From: Mucilaginibacter ginsenosidivorans
GTDB taxonomy: Bacteria > Bacteroidota > Bacteroidia > Sphingobacteriales > Sphingobacteriaceae
Direction of reading: 5' to 3'
Assembly (NCBI RefSeq): GCF_007971025.1
Contig: NZ_CP042436.1
Coordinates: forward strand, 4,092,001 to 4,156,000
Length of the DNA: 64,000 nt
The notes under the pieces were generated by a model. The model worked only from the letters and a program-made list of their open reading frames with translations, was not told the origin of the DNA and searched no databases. Both the position numbers and the translations under genes were made by a program. Positions 7,153-16,216 of the stretch are shown one piece after another. How positions within the stretch are numbered: the stretch's first letter is position 1; the number at the start of each line of letters is the position of its first letter.

Positions 7153-8940
7153 TTATTTAGGTAAACTGAAATAAAATGTAGCTCCTTTATTTTCCTCCGC
7201 TTCGGCCCATACCTCTCCGCCATGCTTGTCGATCACCCTCTTCACCAGGGCAAGACCAACACCGGTGCCTTCAAATTCTTCCTGCGAATGCAATCGCTGA
7301 AAGACACCGAATAATTTGCCGGCGTAAGCCATATCGAAACCGACGCCATTATCCTTTATAAAGTAAACGACCCTGTTCCTCTCCTCCTGCGCGCCGATCT
7401 CGATTACCGGATTATCCTGCCTGGATGAATATTTTATAGCGTTGCCTATCAGGTTCATTAAAACTTGCTTTATAAGGGCCCGGTCGGCATTTGATGAAGG
7501 TAATGACCCTATCCCGATGCGATATTTTTCCCTGATTCCGTTCTCCAATAATTCTTCGATAACCGACTGGGCAAGCGGCTTCATATCAACGTTGCTGAAA
7601 GCAAGTTCTTTCTTACCCAGCCTCGAAAACGCAAGCAGTTCATCTATCAATTGCCCCATTGTTTTGGCGTTTTTGATAATGTTATCAACTATCCTAACCC
7701 CTTCAGCGTCCAGTTTATCTTCATAATCTTCCTTAAGCATGATCGAGTAGCCATTCACAGCACGCAGTGGCGTACGAAGGTCGTGCGACACCGAATACGA
7801 AAATGCCTCGAGCTCTTTATTTACATTCTGCAACTGTGCGGTACGCTCCGTCACCTTGCTTTCCAGGTCCTGGTGCATTTTGTACACCTTTGCTGTCATC
7901 ACATTGAAAGCATTCGCTAATTCACCAAGCTCATCTTTTCGGTAAATATCCACCGACGATGAATAATCGCCCTGTGCTATCGACGCAGCGGCCTTTGTAA
8001 GTTCATTAAGCGGACGTGTAATATTACGGCTCATTATCCATGCTGCTATAATGCCGATAAGCGTCAGCAATAGCCCCGAAACAATGATCAGGTTGGTAAA
8101 CCCTTTTACCCCCTCCAGGATGGCCGCTTGAGGAAATTCGACCACAGCTACCCAATGGGTGTTGGGCACCGTTTTTGCGCTGGCTATCATGTCAACTCCC
8201 TGTGGGTTCTTGTAGGCTATAATATCATTCATGTGCCCTGGTTTAAACGCCGGGTTCGGCAGTGGTTTAAGCAGGTTCGTCCACATGGAAGCATCCGAAT
8301 TTTCAATATACAATACAGCGCCTGTCCCCAGCAAATGGGTGAACTGCGATACCGCCTGCGGCGTAACCCTGAGCGCCTGCCAGCCGATGATATAGCCTTT
8401 TATATGATCCTTTTCGGCAATTGTCGCTACAACCGGGTAGTACATCGCTCCGCTGATATTATAAATTTTGCCTACAACAGCCAGGTTGGGCGGCACATTC
8501 ATAAATGATAATACTGCACGTATATCCGTCTTTACATCTATTTTGGACTTTTCAGAGCGCAATACCGGTTTTCCGCCGGAGTCGAGTAATTCCACCGATA
8601 CCCATGTTGTATCGCGGTGAAGCTTATCGAGTTCGGCAAGCGTTTCTTTGCGAAAGTCCTTACCGCCTGACTCAAGGCATTTATTAACCGACGATTGTTT
8701 GGCTGCGTTCTCCATCGAGGCTACCACTAGCTGGGCCGACTGCCCGAACATGGTGCTTATCTGGCTGCTAAGCGTTTCAATCCGTACTTTTCCTTCGGCC
8801 AGTGTCGCCTTCCGTAAGCTGTAATAGTTTGCCACGCCATAAAGCGTTATGGCCGAAAGCAGGAAGAAACATATCAACAACGGCACGCGTTGTTGTATTG
8901 ACAATCTGCCTGAAAAAAACCGGTTTTTCTGCATATTCAT
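7153..8940 (-). CDS. Membrane sensor histidine kinase (Cache-like sensor, HAMP)
   Basis: Sensor kinase of 595 aa. TM1 at about 20-42, a ~240-residue periplasmic sensor that looks like a double-Cache/PAS-like fold ([26 protein letters not shown]), TM2 at about 284-303, HAMP at about 304-356, then H-box [12 protein letters not shown] with His386. The ATPase domain shows [18 protein letters not shown] and GTGVGLALV. First gene of the operon that continues through the single receiver and the receiver-PAS kinase. The start could also be the Met two codons downstream. The ligand is unknown; Cache sensors usually bind small organic acids or amino acids. Confidence 0.9.
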
Positions 8941-9451
8941 AGTTTGATCTTATTGCCTTTAACGCCTGAAAACACGAACGATCCTTTGTTTTTATCAGCT
9001 TTGGTCAATAAGTAAAAGCGTGATTTAATACAGGGTTAACAAACTGCGATCAAGGTTTAAAAATTAATTCAGAGATAATAATGCCTCTGTCAGGGCTCAT
9101 TGATATTAATCATTAGTTTCATAATTAGGGCTTATAAACAAATATAATACATATTTTTAGTTAATAAGCACCGTTTTTTAACCCATTTTTTGTAAAAATA
9201 ATAGGATGATAATTACAACATCTCGTCTATGATATTATCAGCAATTCGGAATATGATCAGTATGCAGACCAATACTGACCTGGTATTTATATTTATTATG
9301 TAATATGATCGTGTGCCTATAGTCTATTGTTGCAGATAACGGCTTGTTTGGCTCTTCTAAAAAAAGCGAACAATTTTTTATTTATTTAAAATGTTTTCAC
9401 CTGCCAATCGTCTCTACCTTTAAAGGAGAAAATAAATTGATCACCGCAGTA
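8941..9451. other. AT-rich divergent promoter region
   Basis: About 510 bp between the divergent kinase operon and the sigma-factor gene, strongly AT-rich, without a convincing ORF. It should contain both promoters. The only symmetric site I see is TCAGTAT (9257-9263) with ATACTGA (9272-9278), 7-bp arms and an 8-bp spacer, a possible operator on the sigma-factor side. Nothing else stands out. Confidence 0.5.
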
Positions 9452-10009
9452 ATGCCCGAAGAAAAACAAAATCATATCATACAGGCTATCAGATCGTATG
9501 GTAAGGGCTTGCTGGGCTTTATCCGGAAACGTGTTAAAAACGATGCCGATGCTGAAGATATCCTGCAGGATGTATGGTACCAGTTAAGCTCCGTGGTAAA
9601 CGCCGAACCGATAGAGCAAACAGGCGCCTGGCTTTACCGCGTGGCAACCAACAAGATCATTGACAAGAACCGCAAGAAAACCGAAGAGCTGCTCGACCTG
9701 TCTCCGGGCGAAGATGGTGACGACGATGATGCCCCCGATTTCAGGGCCATCCTGCTTACCGAAGGCACCACGCCCGAGACCGAATATATACGCAACCTGT
9801 TTTGGGAGCAATTGTTTGTGGCCCTGGACGAGTTGCCCGAAGAGCAGCGGCAGGTGTTTATCTGGCAGGAACTGGACGATATCCCCTTTAATGAAATAGC
9901 CCAACGCACCGGCGAAAATGTACAGACGCTTGTCTCGAGAAAGCGCTATGCCGTGCTTCACCTGCGCAAAAGGCTAAAACAATTGTATTTAGAGATTACA
10001 GAATATTAA
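9452..10009 (+). CDS. ECF-type RNA polymerase sigma factor
   Basis: Sigma-70 family, ECF group, 185 aa from the ATG at 9452. The frame is open from 9344, but that would need a TTG start and adds a sequence unlike the family. Region 2 contains DADAEDILQDVWYQL and GAWLYRVATNKIIDKNRKK. An acidic linker (GEDGDDDDAPDF) follows. Region 4 has LDELPEEQRQVFIWQELDDIPFNEIAQRTGENVQTLVSRKRYAV, a helix-turn-helix that binds the -35 element. The next gene, 14 bp downstream, encodes a two-helix membrane protein and probably belongs to the same transcript. No classical FecR-type anti-sigma gene is present. Confidence 0.9.
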   Translation: MPEEKQNHIIQAIRSYGKGLLGFIRKRVKNDADAEDILQDVWYQLSSVVNAEPIEQTGAWLYRVATNKIIDKNRKKTEELLDLSPGEDGDDDDAPDFRAILLTEGTTPETEYIRNLFWEQLFVALDELPEEQRQVFIWQELDDIPFNEIAQRTGENVQTLVSRKRYAVLHLRKRLKQLYLEITEY

Positions 10010-10023
10010 AAAGTAAAAAAGAC

Positions 10024-10455
10024 ATGAGAGATACAGATTTTGGAGACCGTGCTTACAGGCATAAGGCCCATTTCAGAAAAAAAATAATTTTTATACCCTT
10101 CCTGGTAGCCGGCGGGCTGGCGCTTATCAGCTACATCGTAATGCTGCTTTGGAATGGTTTACTGCCCGAAGTTTTGCATACGGGCACCATCACATTCTGG
10201 CAAGCCATGGGCCTGTTCATACTTGCCAAAATACTTTTCGGCTTCGGTAAGGGCGGCGGCCGTGGGGGTGCGCCGTGGATGCGCCATAAAATGGAAAGAT
10301 GGCGGGATATGAGCCCCGAAGAACGTGACCGCCTGCGCGAACAAATGCGCTCACGCTGCAACAAATGGGGCAGGCACCGGGGTGATTTTGATTGGGACCA
10401 GCCTGCCGAAAGCGCGACCCCGGCTACAGAAGAGCCCATAAAACCCACTGAATAA
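10024..10455 (+). CDS. Small two-helix membrane protein, ECF partner candidate
   Basis: Not a recognised family. A 143-aa protein with a basic N-terminus (RAYRHKAHFRKK), TM1 at about 20-43, TM2 at about 58-75, then a Gly-rich segment (GKGGGRGG) and a charged, Arg-rich cytoplasmic tail (MSPEERDRLREQMRSRCNKW) ending in an acidic/Pro stretch. It sits 14 bp after the ECF sigma gene and before a hairpin terminator, so the two are very likely cotranscribed. Inference: it may tether or regulate the sigma factor, but it lacks an obvious zinc-binding anti-sigma motif. Confidence 0.65.
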   Translation: MRDTDFGDRAYRHKAHFRKKIIFIPFLVAGGLALISYIVMLLWNGLLPEVLHTGTITFWQAMGLFILAKILFGFGKGGGRGGAPWMRHKMERWRDMSPEERDRLREQMRSRCNKWGRHRGDFDWDQPAESATPATEEPIKPTE

Positions 10456-10463
10456 CAAAAAAA

Positions 10464-10501
10464 CTACCGGTCCTGTCCAATTTTTACGGGCCCGGTAGTT
10501 A
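10464..10501 (+). terminator. Hairpin terminator after the sigma-factor unit
   Basis: Arms AACTACCGG and CCGGTAGTT are perfectly complementary and enclose a T-rich loop; an A-run precedes the hairpin. It lies 9 bp after the stop of the two-helix membrane protein gene. The poor U-tract on the + strand makes it a modest rho-independent signal. Confidence 0.6.
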
Positions 10502-10517
10502 TTGGTTTATAAGATAT

Positions 10518-10739
10518 ATGGCAATGGAAATATTGATCTTTAAAACAAACGTTACAAGCAAAAGAAAAGTAAGTAAGGTAAAGCGCTTGCTAACTTCGGT
10601 AGATGCCATTAAACAATGGAATTTTGACCTGGAGGATTGCGATAAGGTATTGCGTATAGAAGCTAACGGCCTAAACACCGGCTATGTCGAATCCCTGTTG
10701 CATACAGCCGGGTTTCACTGCCAGGAAATGGATTATTAA
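10518..10739 (+). CDS. Small HMA-like protein without metal-binding cysteines
   Basis: A 73-aa protein. MEILIFKTNVTSKRKVSKVKRLLTS and the later VLRIEANGLNTGYVESLLHTAGF follow the beta-alpha-beta-beta-alpha-beta pattern of heavy-metal-associated (ferredoxin-fold) domains: IFKTNV where HMA proteins have the first strand, then a helix, and a final LHTAGF resembling the HMA ending. The CxxC metal motif is absent (the corresponding loop is TSKRK), so copper binding is unlikely. It could start at either of two Mets (10518 or 10524). It is separated from the sigma unit by a terminator-like hairpin. Role unknown. Confidence 0.65.
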   Translation: MAMEILIFKTNVTSKRKVSKVKRLLTSVDAIKQWNFDLEDCDKVLRIEANGLNTGYVESLLHTAGFHCQEMDY

Positions 10740-10741
10740 GG

Positions 10742-10816
10742 TCACGGGTAACGCTTCATGCTCATCAGGATGACCGTGGCGCATACTAATACTATGGCAA
10801 TAATGAATACTATCAT
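10742..10816 (-). CDS. Possible 24-residue single-pass membrane peptide
   Basis: A reverse-strand ATG at 10816 opens a 24-codon frame ending in TGA at 10742. Residues 2-18 are almost wholly hydrophobic (VFIIAIVLVCATVILM), followed by a positive tail MKRYP, the layout of small membrane subunits such as CydX or KdpF. It is downstream of blaR1 on the same strand, beyond the hairpin at 10869-10901. No ribosome-binding site is obvious, and chance cannot be excluded for so short a frame. Confidence 0.35.
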   Translation of the reverse strand: MIVFIIAIVLVCATVILMSMKRYP

Positions 10817-10868
10817 AACATCCTATGATTTAACAGATTATCGAAAAAATTATTGTGCACGGTATTCA

Positions 10869-10901
10869 AGACTTACGAAGTTTTAAAAACTCCGTAAGTC
10901 T
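10869..10901. terminator. Palindromic hairpin between convergent genes
   Basis: Arms AGACTTACG and CGTAAGTCT are perfectly paired and extend inward through AGTTTT/AAAACT after one mismatch. It lies just after the blaR1 stop and can serve as a bidirectional terminator (GTTTTAG follows on the + strand). A partial copy of the same sequence occurs at 37035-37058, so it is also a dispersed repeat. Confidence 0.65.
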
Positions 10902-10917
10902 GTTTTAGAAAGTAGGA

Positions 10918-13497
10918 TCAGTTGAATGCGTTCTTCAACTGGATATATTTGTTCAGGTCCTTCGAATTGAACCCTTTTGCTTTCATTTCTTTTATATACT
11001 CTGGGGTCACTCCCGTGGCCTTCATTGATGTGGCATCGTTAAGCGATATGTTGGTGAAGCCTATATCTTTAAAACCTTTGATAAAGGCCGGCGTAACGCC
11101 CAGGGCCTTAAGCGATGTAACGTCATTCAGCGATACATTGGTAAACCCGATGTCTTTAAAGCCTTTAATAAAACCGGGTGTAACACCCAACGATTTCAGT
11201 GAGGACAATTCATTGATCGGGATCTGTTTGTAACCCACGGCCTCGAAACTTTTAATAAATTCGGCGTTAACGTTCAAAGCTTTAAGCGACGATAGTTCGT
11301 TGATGGAAATGTTCTTATAGCCCATATCTTCAAAGCCTTTTATAAAATCCGGTTTAATGCCCAGCGCCTTCAGCGATGTCAGGTCATTAGGCGATAGATC
11401 TTTATAGCCTATATCATTAAAGCTCTTGATAAAATCGGCATTTACGCCCAGCGATTTGAAAGACATCAATTCATTGGCCGATATATTTTTATAACCCATA
11501 TCGTTAACACCTTTGATGTATTCAGGCGTAATACCTAACGATCTCAGCGAAACCAGTTCGTTTGCCGATATGTTTTTATAACCCAAAGCAGCAAGGCTTT
11601 TGGCATAATCCGAAGTGACACCCACCGCTTTCATGCTGGTCAGTTCATTTATCGGTACGTTGGTGTAGCCGGCTTCCTTGATATCCCGCACATAAGCCGA
11701 ATCGATGTTCATCGCTTTGAATGAAGTAATATCTTCGGCACGCGGCATTTCATTTTCGTTACCGTTCTTTGCAAATTTTGCGTTAGCTTTTTTCAGGCTT
11801 GCTATATACTTGCCGTCTATACCCAAAGCTTTAAAGCTCGTCAGCTGGTTAAAATCAACATCCTTATAGCCGGCTTCACGTATTTCGTGCACATATTCCT
11901 TATTGATGCCCAACGCTTTGGCCGACACCAGTTCGTTCGGGCTCATATGCATATAACCTTCCTGTTTCCAGAATTTTATGAAAGGCTCGTCTACTTTAAG
12001 CGCGCCCATGGATACCAGATCATTCTTACCAAGATGGGTGTACCCGTTAGCTTTCAGCATCGCCACGTAATCTCTTTTAATATTGATGATAAAAAATGCG
12101 AACTGGTCATTTTCCTCTATCCCGGTAATGCCTTCACTTTTCAGGTAATCAGTAAATCCCTTATCGGCCGTGAATTTGTAATGGCCATAACCGTCGTTAC
12201 CGTCAAACTTTCCATTGAAAAGTACCGTGCCGGCATCGCGTTTAAGCGTAAAATCACCTTTTGTGTCTTTTGGCAGGGACGAAAATTCACTCAGCAGGAA
12301 GCTGTCGCTGTTCGACCAGTTATGATCGTCATCATCGTTCCTGAATTCAATGCGCACCTTCTCGCCTTTTATGGTGGCAAACCAGGTACCCTGGCTCATA
12401 TCCCGCGATCCCCAGTTTTGGTGAAACGATTGATTACGGGAAACAGTGGCTTTGCTTTTGGTTTTTGCCTTGCCCTGGCTGAACGCTGTTTGGTTAAGCG
12501 CACAGGCCAGCCCTGCCATCAGCGGCAGCAGGATAAAATATTTCCACATCGTATGGATGTTCGATCTCTTGACGTTCATCATAACAATTCGTTTCTTTAA
12601 CAGTGATTGATTATAGTTGGTAGTAACGCTCAGCGCCAAATGTGGCACCGATACTTTTAATAAGCTCATCTGGTAGCTTTCCTTTTCAACCGGGTTGTGG
12701 CCAAGCACCGTTTCGTCGGTCAAAAACTCCAGGTTGTTTTCCAGTTCGCCCCGGTAAAGCCAGGCAAAAGGGTTAAACCACTGGAACACCAACACGAGTT
12801 CGGCTAACAAAATATCCGCGCTGTGGCCCTGCTGTATGTGCACCTTCTCATGCAATAGTATTTGGTTATAGGTATCCCAGTCGTATTTTTCGGGATTGAT
12901 AAAAATGTTGTTGCCAAACGAGCACGGCGCTTTATCACCGGTAACTTCAATTATCCGGAATTTACCATCCAGTATCACGGGGTTCGAATAGGCGCGGTAA
13001 AGCAGTACGATAACTTGCAGCAACAGGTTCAAGCCAAAGGCCCCCACCCCTGCCCAATAGATATAAAACAACCATTTGATAACGATGGGCCATACCGGTT
13101 TGGCCTGCTCAGCAATGATGGATTGGGGCTCGCCGGCCGCGGTAACCGTCGGCGCAGCCTGTACCTTTGCCGCCTCATGTTTTACAACAGGCTGTTTTTT
13201 TGCTTGTTGTTGCGCCTGCTTTTGGGCGGCCAATACCTGTTTTTGAACTTCAGCTTTTATAAGCACAGCCATTTCCGGTGTTTGCTGAACCTGTGCTTTT
13301 AAAGCGGCCCGCCCCGGTTCGCTCCTTAGCGTCCAGGCCTCGGGAATGGTAATAAGCGGCAGCGTGAACGAAAGCCCCAGGCATACAAGCAATATCACCC
13401 GGTTAAGTTTATAAAAGGTTTCGCGCTGTAAAAATATCTTGTAAAACAGCAGGCTTATCGATATAAGCAGCGCTACGTGCAATATATAAGGTATCAT
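10918..13497 (-). CDS. blaR1: BlaR1-type M56 metallopeptidase sensor with 29-residue repeats
   Basis: Membrane sensor-protease of 859 aa. Hydrophobic segments at about 5-22, 33-50, 137-167 and 319-335 frame a gluzincin site HEKVH (216-220), with ENNLEFLTDE (about 253-262) supplying the third ligand. A Gln/Ala/Lys-rich linker fills residues 65-112. After the last TM comes an extracytoplasmic part: a beta-rich segment (about 355-450), then twelve units of about 29 residues (494-850) with consensus L-S-LKALGV-T-x-EYIK-x5-GY-x-x-I-S-x-NE. In classical BlaR1 the C-terminus is a penicillin-binding domain; none is present here. Paired with blaI by an ATGA start-stop overlap (13494-13497). Family knowledge: on sensing, the protease leads to BlaI inactivation. 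Ligand unknown. Confidence 0.85.
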   Translation of the reverse strand: MIPYILHVALLISISLLFYKIFLQRETFYKLNRVILLVCLGLSFTLPLITIPEAWTLRSEPGRAALKAQVQQTPEMAVLIKAEVQKQVLAAQKQAQQQAKKQPVVKHEAAKVQAAPTVTAAGEPQSIIAEQAKPVWPIVIKWLFYIYWAGVGAFGLNLLLQVIVLLYRAYSNPVILDGKFRIIEVTGDKAPCSFGNNIFINPEKYDWDTYNQILLHEKVHIQQGHSADILLAELVLVFQWFNPFAWLYRGELENNLEFLTDETVLGHNPVEKESYQMSLLKVSVPHLALSVTTNYNQSLLKKRIVMMNVKRSNIHTMWKYFILLPLMAGLACALNQTAFSQGKAKTKSKATVSRNQSFHQNWGSRDMSQGTWFATIKGEKVRIEFRNDDDDHNWSNSDSFLLSEFSSLPKDTKGDFTLKRDAGTVLFNGKFDGNDGYGHYKFTADKGFTDYLKSEGITGIEENDQFAFFIINIKRDYVAMLKANGYTHLGKNDLVSMGALKVDEPFIKFWKQEGYMHMSPNELVSAKALGINKEYVHEIREAGYKDVDFNQLTSFKALGIDGKYIASLKKANAKFAKNGNENEMPRAEDITSFKAMNIDSAYVRDIKEAGYTNVPINELTSMKAVGVTSDYAKSLAALGYKNISANELVSLRSLGITPEYIKGVNDMGYKNISANELMSFKSLGVNADFIKSFNDIGYKDLSPNDLTSLKALGIKPDFIKGFEDMGYKNISINELSSLKALNVNAEFIKSFEAVGYKQIPINELSSLKSLGVTPGFIKGFKDIGFTNVSLNDVTSLKALGVTPAFIKGFKDIGFTNISLNDATSMKATGVTPEYIKEMKAKGFNSKDLNKYIQLKNAFN
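10948..12018 (-). repeat. Tandem 87-bp coding repeats inside blaR1
   Basis: The repeat array encodes twelve consecutive units, eleven of 29 residues and one (the third) expanded to 38 residues by an insert containing KNGNENEMPRAED. The C-terminal units are closest to each other: units 10 and 11 share most residues (GFIKGFKDIGFTNVSLND and AFIKGFKDIGFTNISLND), and their DNA is also similar, which points to recent duplication. N-terminal units are more diverged. Such DNA can vary in copy number by slippage or recombination. Confidence 0.85.
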
Positions 13498-13856
13498 TTC
13501 TTTGACGATTTAATGATGTCTAATATTTCGTTCAGTTCCGATTCTGATATTTTTTGTTCTTTGGCAAAAAAAGCCAGCATGCTTGGATACGAGTTATTGA
13601 AGTATTGGCTCACGATATCCTTCATGGCATGTTTCTGGTAATCGTCCCTGCTGATGACCGGGTAGTAACGAAAGATATTACCAAAGGCCTCATGCGCCAG
13701 GAAACCTTTCTCCTCCAATATTTTTACCATAGTGGCGACTGAGTTGTAATGTGGTTTCGGATCGGGCAGTTCGGGAATGATCTCTTTAATAAATGCCTTC
13801 TCCAGGCTCCAGAAAACCTGCATGATTTGTTCTTCTCTTTTAGCCAGCTTTTGCAT
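13494..13856 (-). CDS. blaI: BlaI/MecI/CopY-family transcriptional repressor
   Basis: A 120-aa winged-helix repressor. MQKLAKREEQIMQVFWSLEKAFIKEIIPELP begins the helix-turn-helix, and PHYNSVATMVKILEEKGFLAHEAFGNIFRYYPVISRDDY is the recognition helix and wing that define the family. The C-terminal dimerisation region MLAFFAKEQKISESELNEILDIIKS is the usual length. It precedes and overlaps blaR1 by 4 bp, the standard repressor-sensor arrangement. Two palindromes 25-37 bp upstream of its start are the probable operators, implying autoregulation. Confidence 0.93.
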   Translation of the reverse strand: MQKLAKREEQIMQVFWSLEKAFIKEIIPELPDPKPHYNSVATMVKILEEKGFLAHEAFGNIFRYYPVISRDDYQKHAMKDIVSQYFNNSYPSMLAFFAKEQKISESELNEILDIIKSSKK

Positions 13857-13880
13857 TTCTAATCAAATTTTAATCTAAAC

Positions 13881-13918
13881 TAATACTAATCAATTAGTAT
13901 TACAACTAATCGATTAGT
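13881..13918. promoter_or_regulatory. Paired BlaI-type operators
   Basis: Two related palindromes lie directly upstream of blaI: arms TAATACTAAT/ATTAGTATTA around CA (13881-13902), and the perfect 14-mer ACTAATCGATTAGT (13905-13918). Both share the core ACTAATnnATTAGT, and their centres are 20 bp apart, about two helical turns. Two dyads upstream of the operon are typical for BlaI/MecI repressors. The assignment to BlaI is by position and family habit. Confidence 0.75.
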
Positions 13919-14132
13919 ATTTTTTGTAATCAATTGACTATCAGCCTAAAATTTTTTAGCTTGGGTATATATCTTTTGCACAGCTACCTTATACCCGGCC
14001 TGGTTACAGGCCGGGCGGAACATTATGGATTAGACGCACGTAACATATTGAATGTGACGGTAGTCATAGGATACATTGGATGTAATTACTTAATTTAATC
14101 TTAAGGAAAATTTTACATTCAATTTATCTTGT

Positions 14133-14140
14133 TATTTTTG
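14133..14140 (+). promoter_or_regulatory. Candidate Bacteroidota -7 box for the PAP2 gene
   Basis: TATTTTTG matches the Bacteroidota -7 consensus TAnnTTTG exactly and lies 27 bp upstream of the GTG start at 14168. The expected -33 position holds ATTTTACA, only a weak match to TTTG, so this is tentative. Confidence 0.4.
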
Positions 14141-14167
14141 CACCCTGATTAATTTTTACAGACTAAA

Positions 14168-14800
14168 GTGGCCCGGACAATTGCGATAACATTAAGAAAT
14201 AACTGGAAACAGACCTGGAGTTCCTCGCTTCAGCGTACGCAGATCATTATCGGTTCTATACTGGTGATCGTCATATCCTGTATGATGCCTACGTTTTTCA
14301 ATCTTATCCAGAAAAGAACGGGCCCGGTTTTAAACGACTGGGTTTTAGCAGCTGTTCCGCCGCATAACGTTTCGTGGGCGATATTTACAGTTATCTGGGG
14401 TGTGGGCTTTTATTCGCTTTGGAGAGCAATAGAGAAACCAACGATCTACATCACTTACCTATGGACGTTTATATTCGTCACCATGCTGCGGGTATTGTCC
14501 ATCAGCCTGATACCGCTCGATCCGCCAAAAGGGTTGATCGTGTTAACTGATCCCCTTACAGGCGTTTTTTACGGCCAAAGTAATATTACAAAAGACTTGT
14601 TCTTTTCCGGACATACCTCTATCCTTTTCATGCTGGTACTTTGTTTGGAAAAAAAATCGGATAAAATACTGGCAGGTATTGCCACCTTTATTGTTGCCTG
14701 CCTGTTAATAGTGCAGCACGTGCACTACACTGTCGATATTATTGCAGCGCCGATTATTATATATCCTGTTTACAGATTTGTCAAATTTCTGCTTGGATAA
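14168..14800 (+). CDS. PAP2-family membrane protein, sphingomyelin-synthase-like
   Basis: Integral membrane protein of 210 aa with about six hydrophobic segments. It carries the SMS-type (PAP2_C) catalytic pattern: His149 in FFSGHTS and His186/Asp190 in QHVHYTVD, the H...HYTxD arrangement of sphingomyelin and inositol-phosphoceramide synthases. The phosphatase motif 1 of ordinary PAP2 enzymes is not apparent. Family knowledge: these enzymes transfer a phospho-head group between a phospholipid and ceramide or diacylglycerol. Many Sphingobacteria make sphingolipids, so a head-group transferase is plausible (inference). The start is GTG at 14168. The diiron oxygenase gene follows on the same strand after 183 bp. 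Confidence 0.78.
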   Translation: MARTIAITLRNNWKQTWSSSLQRTQIIIGSILVIVISCMMPTFFNLIQKRTGPVLNDWVLAAVPPHNVSWAIFTVIWGVGFYSLWRAIEKPTIYITYLWTFIFVTMLRVLSISLIPLDPPKGLIVLTDPLTGVFYGQSNITKDLFFSGHTSILFMLVLCLEKKSDKILAGIATFIVACLLIVQHVHYTVDIIAAPIIIYPVYRFVKFLLG

Positions 14801-14836
14801 GCGACCACAGCCAGTTTCTTAGCGTTAACATAAAAA

Positions 14837-14887
14837 AGGCCCCCGCCTGGCGGCGGGAGCCCGTCCCGATAACGTTATACTATCGGG
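14837..14887. repeat. Two adjacent GC-rich inverted repeats
   Basis: Between the PAP2 and AurF-like genes lie CCCCCGCC-TGGC-GGCGGG and, immediately after, CCCGATA with TATCGGG around ACGTTATAC. An A-run precedes the first. They could terminate or attenuate transcription from the PAP2 gene, but there is no U-tract on the + strand. Confidence 0.45.
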
Positions 14888-14983
14888 AACAACCTAAACC
14901 TTATCACGACTTATAAACGGAGTAAATCGTTACTTTAGTTTTGTGATATTGCGTTATGACTTTGGTATGATAAAACCACTGGT

Positions 14984-15862
14984 ATGCAAACAGAAGAGAT
15001 AGAGCGCCTGATAAAAATAAGCAGGGAACGCCCGTTGCTGCCCGAAAGTTATATCCCCTGGCAGCAGGAACCTCGGGCGGAAGACATCTTTTTGCCCGAA
15101 ATTCTTACCTCGCTCCACGGGTTAGATATCTACGACACGCTTACCCCTACGCAAAAGATAGAATTGGGCAGGCACGAACTGGTACAGGTGATAGCCTCCT
15201 ATGCCTGGGGCGAATGCCTTTTTTGCCTGTTCATGACGCGGTATATCCTCACCCTCCCTTTGGCCGACGTCCGGCACCGTTTTCTGCTACGCGAACTGAT
15301 CGAGGAGTTCCGCCACCAGGAAATGTTTGGGCAGGCTATTAACAAACTGGGCGGCGAACCTATTCCCCAATCGCGGCTGCATAAGTTTTTTGGCGAATTC
15401 AGTAACAAGTACCTGCCCGCCGATTATTTATTTATGGGCAGCATATCGGTTGAGTTGGTTACAGATGTTTACGGGAACTACGCACGTAAATCGCCCGGTG
15501 TTTACCCGGTAATACGCAAAATGTTCGACCTGCATAATATCGAGGAGGCGCGGCATATCCTTTTCACCAGGGCGCTCCTTAAAGAATATGCGGCAAAAGC
15601 AGGGTACATCAAGCGCACCCTGTATAGTTATGTCATCCTGTTCAATATCCTGTTCGTACGCACCATGTATGTGAAAAAAAAAATATTTGAACGCACCGGC
15701 ATCCAAAACCCCGATAGGGTTTATAAGATGGCGTCAAAGAATTTCAAACAGAAATTCGCTGAAACCTGCCTCGGTGATATTATTGAATTTGTAGATAGCT
15801 GGCGGGGTTTTAACCGTGCCACCCGCTGGGCCTGGCGCCGCATTTTAAAAGCAAAAGTTTAA
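14984..15862 (+). CDS. AurF-family diiron oxygenase
   Basis: A 292-aa ferritin-like diiron protein. All seven ligand positions of p-aminobenzoate N-oxygenase AurF have a counterpart: E77, E108 and H111 (EEFRH), E157, H184, E188 and H191 (LHNIEEARH). The spacings E157-H184 (27), H184-E188 (4) and E188-H191 (3) are the same as in AurF. Family members oxidise amines to hydroxylamine/nitro groups or hydroxylate organic substrates using O2. No biosynthetic cluster surrounds it, so the substrate is open. A hydrophobic segment at about 211-226 (YSYVILFNILFVRTMY) is unusual and may mean a membrane-associated substrate. Confidence 0.85.
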   Translation: MQTEEIERLIKISRERPLLPESYIPWQQEPRAEDIFLPEILTSLHGLDIYDTLTPTQKIELGRHELVQVIASYAWGECLFCLFMTRYILTLPLADVRHRFLLRELIEEFRHQEMFGQAINKLGGEPIPQSRLHKFFGEFSNKYLPADYLFMGSISVELVTDVYGNYARKSPGVYPVIRKMFDLHNIEEARHILFTRALLKEYAAKAGYIKRTLYSYVILFNILFVRTMYVKKKIFERTGIQNPDRVYKMASKNFKQKFAETCLGDIIEFVDSWRGFNRATRWAWRRILKAKV

Positions 15863-15901
15863 ACCGGCATCCAACAATAAAACAATCAGGCAATACAGCA
15901 A

Positions 15902-16216
15902 TTATTCCGATGCTTCCTCACCCTTCTCTCCCAGTTTCACAATATCGCCTTCTTTAAATAATATAGCCTTCAAAGTATCCCGCCATTTGGGTTTCTGGCG
16001 CAGCAGAAATTCCAGGTCCATGCCAAAATGTTTAAATTCTTCGTGCTGGGCGTTCTGCATAATGGCTTTGGCCTGCTTGTCTTTTTCTACGGATATACGT
16101 TGTTCATACCAGTTGATAGCCTCAGCTTCTTCAGTAAGCGAAACGATCATCCTGGCGAAAGTGCGTGTCTTGTCGGATAACTCCTCTGGTGGTTCGTGGT
16201 ATTGGTCAAATGACAT
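15902..16216 (-). CDS. Encapsulated-ferritin-like (EncFtn) protein
   Basis: A 104-aa protein from the ATG at 16216; the longer upstream frame is not family-like. It matches the two-helix EncFtn ferroxidase family: SLTEEAEAINWYEQR and NAQHEEFKHFGMDLEFLLR. The ferroxidase residues known in the Rhodospirillum protein (E32, E62, H65) correspond to E30, E60 and H63. Entry-site glutamates (E29, E32) and Trp36-Tyr37 are also kept, all with a constant offset of two. EncFtn normally oxidises iron inside an encapsulin nanocompartment. No encapsulin gene is adjacent, and the C-terminus (IVKLGEKGEEASE) has no clear LTVGSLRR-like targeting peptide. A lipoprotein gene lies 50 bp upstream on the same strand. 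Confidence 0.82.
   Translation of the reverse strand: MSFDQYHEPPEELSDKTRTFARMIVSLTEEAEAINWYEQRISVEKDKQAKAIMQNAQHEEFKHFGMDLEFLLRQKPKWRDTLKAILFKEGDIVKLGEKGEEASE

Follow-up and report, generated by a model that had tools for sequence, protein, structure and literature searches.

A putative BlaI/BlaR1-type induction system in Mucilaginibacter in which a beta domain and a 29-residue repeat array stand in place of the penicillin-binding sensor

BlaR1 is known as a sensor of beta-lactams, and its sensor domain resembles the class D beta-lactamases. On induction, BlaR1/MecR1 receptors, which have four TM helices with both ends outside, cleave themselves as well as BlaI. Genomes also carry M56 genes outside this beta-lactam role. 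The signatures of Staphylococcus aureus BlaR1, according to an excerpt of PMC9834060, are HEXXH, EXXXD, a Tyr that is conserved almost strictly and an Arg contributed by a swapped helix; the same excerpt describes a BlaR1 homologue of Mycobacterium tuberculosis that has the M56 domain without a penicillin sensor. In the cognate repressors BlaI and MecI, the cleavage site is at N101-F102 (PMC3305447, excerpt).

Here, we describe a receptor of this kind in the window, that is, the whole stretch of 64,000 nucleotides from Mucilaginibacter ginsenosidivorans that was analyzed (Table 1). The earlier note on this DNA correctly identified an M56-type open reading frame, which begins with ATG; the end it gave, 10948, drops the last ten codons. 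Peptidase_M56 matches residues 199 to 306 (1.7e-13; 50.9 bits, with a cut-off of 31), a region that contains the HEKVH motif already noticed (H216EKVH220) together with E257FLTD261 (the ExxxD motif), Y275 and R303. Residues H216, E217, H220, E257, D261, Y275 and R303 are invariant in all 20 aligned M56 sequences. TM-like stretches, placed by hydropathy only, cover residues 1 to 24, 28 to 55, 138 to 176 and 316 to 339, with a weaker one at 229 to 247. The closest full-length orthologue found is 67 to 70% identical. The same genome has eight M56 matches in all. No transpeptidase-type (penicillin-binding) Pfam model matched any part of the 859-residue protein (E values up to 10, HMMER filters on), and the NCBIfam model blaR1_generic scored 18.7 bits, against a cut-off of 400, on the peptidase part only. 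Since the peptidase and the gene pair have the features of BlaR1 and the penicillin-binding sensor is missing, we do not classify the protein as a BlaR1 beta-lactam receptor.

Table 1. Positions, strands and supporting evidence for the features discussed; coordinates are those of the window unless a locus is named.
Feature	Position	Strand	Basis
M56/BlaR1-type peptidase receptor, whole gene, 859 aa	10918..13497	-	ORF; PF05569; 19 orthologues 43-70% identical
Membrane and peptidase part, about residues 1-339	12481..13497	-	PF05569, alignment, hydropathy; motif roles from PMC9834060 (excerpt)
Beta domain, residues 365-456 (six strands, then helix), also in secI and secII	12130..12405	-	Model, alignment
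Array (residues 457-859), about 13 hairpins of two helices, 29 aa each	10921..12129	-	Motif, repeat HMM, AlphaFold2
blaI-like repressor, 120 aa, overlapping the M56 gene by 4 nt	13494..13856	-	Penicillinase_R (PF03965) 1.5e-32; MecI 1sd6 2.9e-10
Operator half 1, ACTAATCAATTAGT	13885..13898	.	Exact match to site
Operator half 2, ACTAATCGATTAGT, 20 bp from half 1	13905..13918	.	Exact match to site
Gene for a 210-aa PAP2_C-type membrane protein, beyond the operator and divergent from blaI	14168..14800	+	PF14360 1.2e-8
secI, own genome	L073 9738-11126	-	Frame with beta domain and array
secII, own genome	L073 8537-9682	-	Frame with beta domain and array
FtsX_B divergent from blaI	L040=G033, L041=G023, L042=G119, L124=G096, L136=G005, L126=G068, L137=G112, L138=G118		

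The receptor gene overlaps a gene for a BlaI-like repressor, whose residues F96-F97 line up with N101-F102, where BlaI and MecI are cleaved. The cleavage-site pattern L-x-(F/Y)-F-A-K is kept in all 34 BlaI sequences, and a blaI frame was found in 33 of 34 related loci, the exception (L054) being a short contig. The gene pair, the conserved catalytic and cleavage-site residues and the architecture of the ectodomain can be read from the sequence; the first three indicate proteolytic induction of the BlaR1 type, and BlaI and the M56 protein almost certainly form an induction pair. The suggestion that a new extracellular sensor replaces the penicillin-binding domain is supported by the lack of a transpeptidase model match, the retained M56 residues and the adjacent blaI.

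The putative sensor has two parts. Between the last TM stretch and the array lies a beta domain of about 80 to 90 residues (core at about residues 365 to 445), with ten invariant columns across 40 sequences. Downstream of it, the 29-residue periodicity is clear: the self-identity at lag 29 over residues 460 to 859 is 0.41, compared to a mean of 0.069 and a maximum of 0.116 in 2,000 shuffles. From residue 494 onward, ten units fit a strict motif; continuing in the same register brings the count to twelve (starts at 494 to 822), and 13 are found by a repeat HMM. Between the third and fourth motif units, the spacing is 38 residues rather than 29; neither this break nor the beta domain is mentioned in the earlier note. 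Of the twelve near-identical units proposed there, the periodicity stands, with 12 to 13 units, and the near-identity does not, since the units are 21 to 83% identical in amino acids. Nor is it confirmed that the most alike copies are gathered at the C terminus: units 10 and 11 are the most similar pair in the protein (83%), yet are only 70% identical in DNA, where units 8 and 11 form the best pair (75%), and the last unit has diverged, with a best match of 52% in amino acids. A recent expansion is not supported when the best pair of units is only 75% identical in nucleotides.

No Pfam or NCBIfam model, including those of known BlaR1 sensors, scored above its cut-off on the beta domain or the array, and the ectodomain had no match among plasmid records. 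Two UBA domains fell below the Pfam cut-offs on the receptor (UBA_NBR1_C, 22.6 bits versus 27; UBA_3, 15.5 versus 20.4). Short matches to PHROGs families of unknown function (best, 5.7e-7) and to PADLOC models (best, 1e-6), with no single stretch passing, were judged to be chance repeat matches, and Rfam found nothing over window positions 8900 to 16000. Searched by sequence with phmmer, the PDB yielded the designed nanocage O43_129 (8v2d; 5.9e-12) and two weak matches (E values of 0.069 and 1.2). The cage has LG-helix-turn-helix repeats like those of the array; however, it is man-made, and although it was alone below 1e-3 in a Foldseek search with the ectodomain, its TM-score was 0.16 to 0.23.

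AlphaFold2 predicted a confident solenoid (mean pLDDT, 89.6; pTM, 0.64; 23 input sequences) in which six strands are followed by 13 helical hairpins and a last helix, and the low-confidence break at model residues 214 to 217 corresponds to the 38-residue unit spacing. The beta domain modeled alone (pLDDT, 76) had no Foldseek match below 1e-3. Its VIA-align rows were weak, among them the FI domain of RpfR (6dgn; Z, 7.5; rmsd, 3.2 over 73 residues) and circularly permuted avidin/streptavidin (Z, 5.6 to 5.8); given such rows and this pLDDT, no function was drawn from either likeness.

The 34 related loci come mostly from Mucilaginibacter, Pedobacter, Arcticibacter and the Chitinophagaceae. A conserved array length would have spoken against the earlier note, but the length varies: the M56-fused ectodomain ranges from 348 to 597 residues among these loci, a comparison between species, with one genome per species in the collection. 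The M56 protein of L047 is truncated and was not counted. The repeat HMM, which was built from ten units and misses degenerate ones, finds 5 to 16 units in full-length proteins, which is too few where an array is degenerate. When compared with three orthologues, the early units, from the second onward, tend to pair with their positional counterparts, and the final unit pairs with the final unit of two of the three. In a sample of the phylum, 46 of 296 genomes match the ectodomain profile at 1e-10, and M56-fused arrays were found in seven families (f1, f26, f27, f57, f61, f64 and f67); the opened loci of f43 hold short repeat-matching proteins only, with no M56 in frame. Among the titles and abstract openings listed in searches of an open-access library, none concerned a repeat-array M56 receptor.

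Two further genes encode secreted-looking paralogues of the ectodomain, designated secI and secII. Both begin with a signal-peptide-like stretch, as read by eye, and combine the beta domain found in the receptor with an array that is shorter, and in secI a long Val/Asn-rich stretch precedes the beta domain. In the genome of the window, they lie at about G000:C1:3118.5-3121.1 kb, some 1 Mb from the receptor. Elsewhere, the M56 gene is followed by secII only (L040 and L041) or by both (L042, L044, L045 and L046), and the M56-array gene of the distant families f61 and f64 likewise has a gene for a secreted-looking array protein directly 3' of it. Neither gene was seen in the covered stretch of many loci, L039, L043, L048 to L053 and L055 to L068 among them. 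In a beta-domain tree of 47 rows, centered on the Sphingobacteriaceae with distant families left out, secII forms one clade (100/100) and secI another (94/92), the latter placed among the M56 ectodomains with weak support (84/83).

Upstream of blaI, the palindrome ACTAATnnATTAGT occurs twice, 20 bp apart, as a candidate operator. With up to two mismatches, this double site was found in 31 of 34 blaI upstream regions (33 loci and the window, from related species and therefore not independent) and in none of 680 base-shuffled regions; it was absent upstream of blaI in L065, L068 and L072. In the genome of the window, the double site occurs at two places only, about 1 Mb apart: before blaI and before the secI-secII operon, where it lies about 50 bp ahead of the secI start, with one half exact and one mismatch in its partner. 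The exact single site occurs four times, as both blaI halves, one secI half and a lone site at 5116473. One-mismatch single sites (19, versus 31 in the reversed control) were not used. Among 100 genomes of the genus, the ectodomain is present in 38, the double site in 41 and both in 35 (Fisher P, 2.6e-17, for related genomes whose overlap represents mostly one locus, the blaI promoter itself); L040 to L046 are apparently G033, G023, G119, G008, G082, G014 and G078, so these counts are not independent of those for the related loci. The reversed pattern matched in 2 of the 100. The site occurs without an array match in six genomes. Two of these, G005 and G063, contain fragments of the system; in the other four, the sites have two mismatches (L131 to L133 and L105), and three of these sites are close to outer-membrane genes. 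G115 carries its site (L134) away from the blaI-M56 locus (L148), which has none.

A secI frame stands directly behind the site, away from blaI, in the genome of the window and in L127 (G089), L129 (G074) and L130 (G063), where it is a 93-residue fragment; there is no blaI within the 3.7 to 6.1 kb around site and secI in the latter three. The secreted paralogues can be read from the DNA, and so can the common operator-like site at unlinked loci, the latter in few cases, four genomes in all, three of them represented by short contigs or stretches. These secI frames are the independent support for a BlaI regulon, to which secI and secII very probably belong. A second promoter-like motif, GTAAC(C/T)TTT-N13-GTATTTAA, precedes both secI and FtsX_A in G068 and G106. 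With one mismatch, GTAACnTTT-N13-GTATTTAA is near background in the 100 genomes; six of its ten exact sites there are in secI/FtsX clusters.

Permeases of the MacB/FtsX type are further candidate outputs. A gene for a MacB_PCD+FtsX permease, FtsX_B, is divergent from blaI in eight genomes (identified by Pfam in L124, L126 and L138 and by BLAST in the rest), at a distance of about 1.5 kb in L137. FtsX_A stands behind its own site in L124, L125 and L128, and L127 has the order site, secI, FtsX_A. Other loci tell against so simple a regulon. FtsX_B is not beside blaI in the genome of the window (L074), in L043, L045, L046, L051, L064, L139 and L140, or in the non-Mucilaginibacter loci of the related set, and since the genome of the window has no third double site, no FtsX gene lies behind one there. 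In G072 and G106, secI-secII adjoin FtsX_B-FtsX_A with no double site, and G106 has no M56-array match. The joint occurrence of array proteins and FtsX permeases even without the site supports a functional link between them and implies that the site is not their sole control. Membership of FtsX genes in the regulon of some relatives is putative, and we consider it probable. In the genome of the window and in its nearest relatives (L039, L043, L047 and L069), the divergent place taken elsewhere by FtsX_B is occupied by a PAP2_C-type gene (the copies of the relatives are 66 to 78% identical to that in the window), which is possibly another output of the system.

The best explanation overall, toward which we lean with modest confidence, is an induction system of the BlaI/BlaR1 type in which the sensor has been replaced and the secreted paralogues are the co-regulated output. 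From the features above, we infer the following course for BlaI binding to the site, repression and cleavage, and for ligand binding, sequestration and ligand class. At rest, BlaI would occupy the double operator and repress its own operon and the secI-secII operon and, in some relatives, MacB/FtsX-type permease genes. Outside the inner membrane, the beta domain and the solenoid would bind an extracytoplasmic ligand, most likely a compound or peptide that acts on the envelope; a signal would then cross the membrane, the cytoplasmic M56 zinc site would cut BlaI at Phe96-Phe97, and the regulon would be derepressed. Through a domain of the same kind, the secI and secII proteins would then bind this ligand too and either sequester it or deliver it to the FtsX permeases; its capture would also shut off the sensor, in the way that beta-lactamase acts in the bla system. 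A common ligand is the simplest reason for the likeness between the sensor and the putatively regulated secreted proteins, and we consider the chances even that one ligand is common to both and sequestered. An envelope-active ligand is the best guess because the permeases are among the candidate outputs; that it might be an antimicrobial peptide or the like is a tentative suggestion.

The long solenoid, of variable length and with a geometry tolerant of changes in copy number, could instead be a mechanical or structural scaffold for adhesion or for cell-surface or envelope contact, through which the M56 part would respond to tension or damage of the envelope and not to a soluble ligand, and the Val/Asn-rich stretch of secI would suit such a role. 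We regard this as unlikely, since the strongly conserved beta domain is common to secreted, untethered forms, whose N termini are plain and signal-peptide-like. The idea of an adhesion array raised in the earlier note has likewise found no support, and the common operator argues for sensing. Less likely still, the array could bind beta-lactams or peptidoglycan fragments without a transpeptidase fold and so be a cell-wall-drug sensor after all. The BlaI/M56 ancestry is consistent with this view, and peptidoglycan fragments are also involved in induction in Bacillus licheniformis (PMC3305447, excerpt). In addition, the FtsX cluster of G082 contains a gene of the Beta-lactamase family (L128 5259-6371; PF00144, 1.9e-49), which adjoins an operator site. 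However, PF00144 also covers other serine hydrolases, this gene points toward the site and so is not directly behind it, it has no relative in 16 other loci of the system, and the receptor itself has no transpeptidase match. Finally, TAL effectors head the VIA-align rows of the ectodomain (4hpz; Z, 8.5; rmsd, 21.3 over 365 residues) and mTERF is among them (3n7q; Z, 6.2; rmsd, 11.2 over 244 residues), but it is highly improbable that the solenoid binds nucleic acid such as extracellular DNA as those solenoids do, given the very large rmsd, Z scores within the tool's "common arrangement" range, and a net charge of -1 (pI 6.6) for the ectodomain and of -2 to -14 for nine secII proteins.

For an induction system with a replaced sensor, the candidate regulon can be read from the DNA: a very specific double site connects the receptor with secreted proteins paralogous to its ectodomain and, in certain relatives, with permeases as well, suggesting that the detector and the response of a putative alarm have one ligand-binding module in common. 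The secI and secII proteins are candidates for purification as soluble ligand-binding proteins, and the double site could serve as a reporter promoter, so that the cue of the sensor in this soil genus becomes the subject of direct experiment. It can be envisioned, although we think it doubtful, that the whole is a receptor-decoy immunity circuit, in which a protease receptor senses an envelope-active peptide or polymer through a length-variable solenoid and secreted copies of its ectodomain trap the ligand and deliver it to MacB/FtsX permeases. If so, the pairs of M56-array and secreted-array genes in several Bacteroidota families would be an unnamed, widespread class of non-beta-lactam BlaR1 systems.

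Among solenoids, the array as modeled appears to resemble those of TAL effectors and mTERF, in which units of about 30 residues, each with two short helices, stack into a superhelix; it differs from them in lacking any match to their family profiles in Pfam (E values up to 10, HMMER filters on), in its predicted extracytoplasmic location and in its near-neutral to acidic charge. We read the likeness of the modeled array as one of general helical-hairpin solenoid shape, not of kinship. The M. tuberculosis BlaR1 homologue has no equivalent sensor, unlike the receptor described here with its new ectodomain. The closest comparison is with BlaR1/MecR1 and BlaI/MecI of staphylococci and B. licheniformis, with which this system has in common a repressor-receptor gene pair, the M56 gluzincin motifs, a predicted multi-TM N-terminal part, a predicted extracytoplasmic C-terminal sensor, a Phe at the cleavage site of the repressor, operator repeats upstream of the blaI operon and a sensor domain related to a secreted protein that is, in this case putatively, regulated. 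It differs in that the sensor is a beta domain with a helical solenoid, the site consists of pairs of ACTAATnnATTAGT spaced by 20 bp, and the candidate outputs are secreted solenoids and FtsX permeases rather than a beta-lactamase or PBP2a. Most likely, the M56-array receptor works like BlaR1; what is new is the variation in array length, the secreted paralogues, the double palindrome and, in some relatives, the same site before MacB/FtsX permeases.

A double palindrome similar to the operator (ACTAATTAATTAGT), with two mismatches, lies ahead of a gene pair in three genomes that lack the repeat array (L131, L132, and L133 in G035, G071, and G093, respectively). The L131 copy of the gene pair behind this palindrome has a Porph_ging match, and carboxypeptidase-regulatory-like domains were found below the cut-off; these data suggest that the double palindrome is another operator of the same class. 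In the genome of M. ginsenosidivorans itself, a single ACTAATTAATTAGT site without a partner is present at position 8473 of locus L123 (G000:C1:5116473), flanked by two outer-membrane beta-barrel genes (PF14905) that come after another M56 gene. This lone site, which is upstream of the second beta-barrel gene, may be a member of a paralogous BlaI regulon.

A different motif, GTAACnTTT-N13-GTATTTAA, is promoter-like and common to secI, which encodes a secreted paralogue of the receptor ectodomain, and the permease gene FtsX_A. Both exact sites in genome G106 fall in the secI/FtsX_A cluster, and the motif is possibly an ECF sigma promoter.

Features of the window and of related loci
Feature	Location	Context
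ECF-type sigma factor gene and small protein gene	window 9344-10009 and 10024-10455	converging on M56 gene
PAP2_C-type gene	window 14168-14800	divergent from blaI across operator
DUF5916+CBM9-like gene	L058 7301-9742; also 12 other loci	downstream of M56-array gene
GTAACnTTT-N13-GTATTTAA motif	L145 7597, 10591; L144 9531; L126 2557, 8472; L042 7603	
Beta-lactamase-family gene (PF00144, 1.9e-49)	L128 5259-6371 (G082)	within FtsX permease cluster
Another BlaI-M56 pair; receptor with DUF4097 and HEAT repeats	L186 1421-4969 (G336)	

Both the window and the loci most closely related to it (L039, L043, L047, and L069) have the PAP2_C-type gene at the spot held by an FtsX permease in other species; at L128, the PF00144 gene adjoins an operator site and is transcribed toward it. 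Frames resembling the sigma factor and small protein genes were observed at L039, L040, L041, and L043. The loci with the DUF5916+CBM9-like gene, for which Pfam was run on the L058 copy only, are from Pedobacter and Arcticibacter.

Short proteins carrying a few copies of the 29-residue array repeat are encoded at L163, L164, L166-L170, and L172-L181; their open frames span 173-299 residues, all end in ISNQ, and nearly all come from a single distant family (f43). The L186 receptor carries a solenoid sensor different from the 29-residue repeat array.
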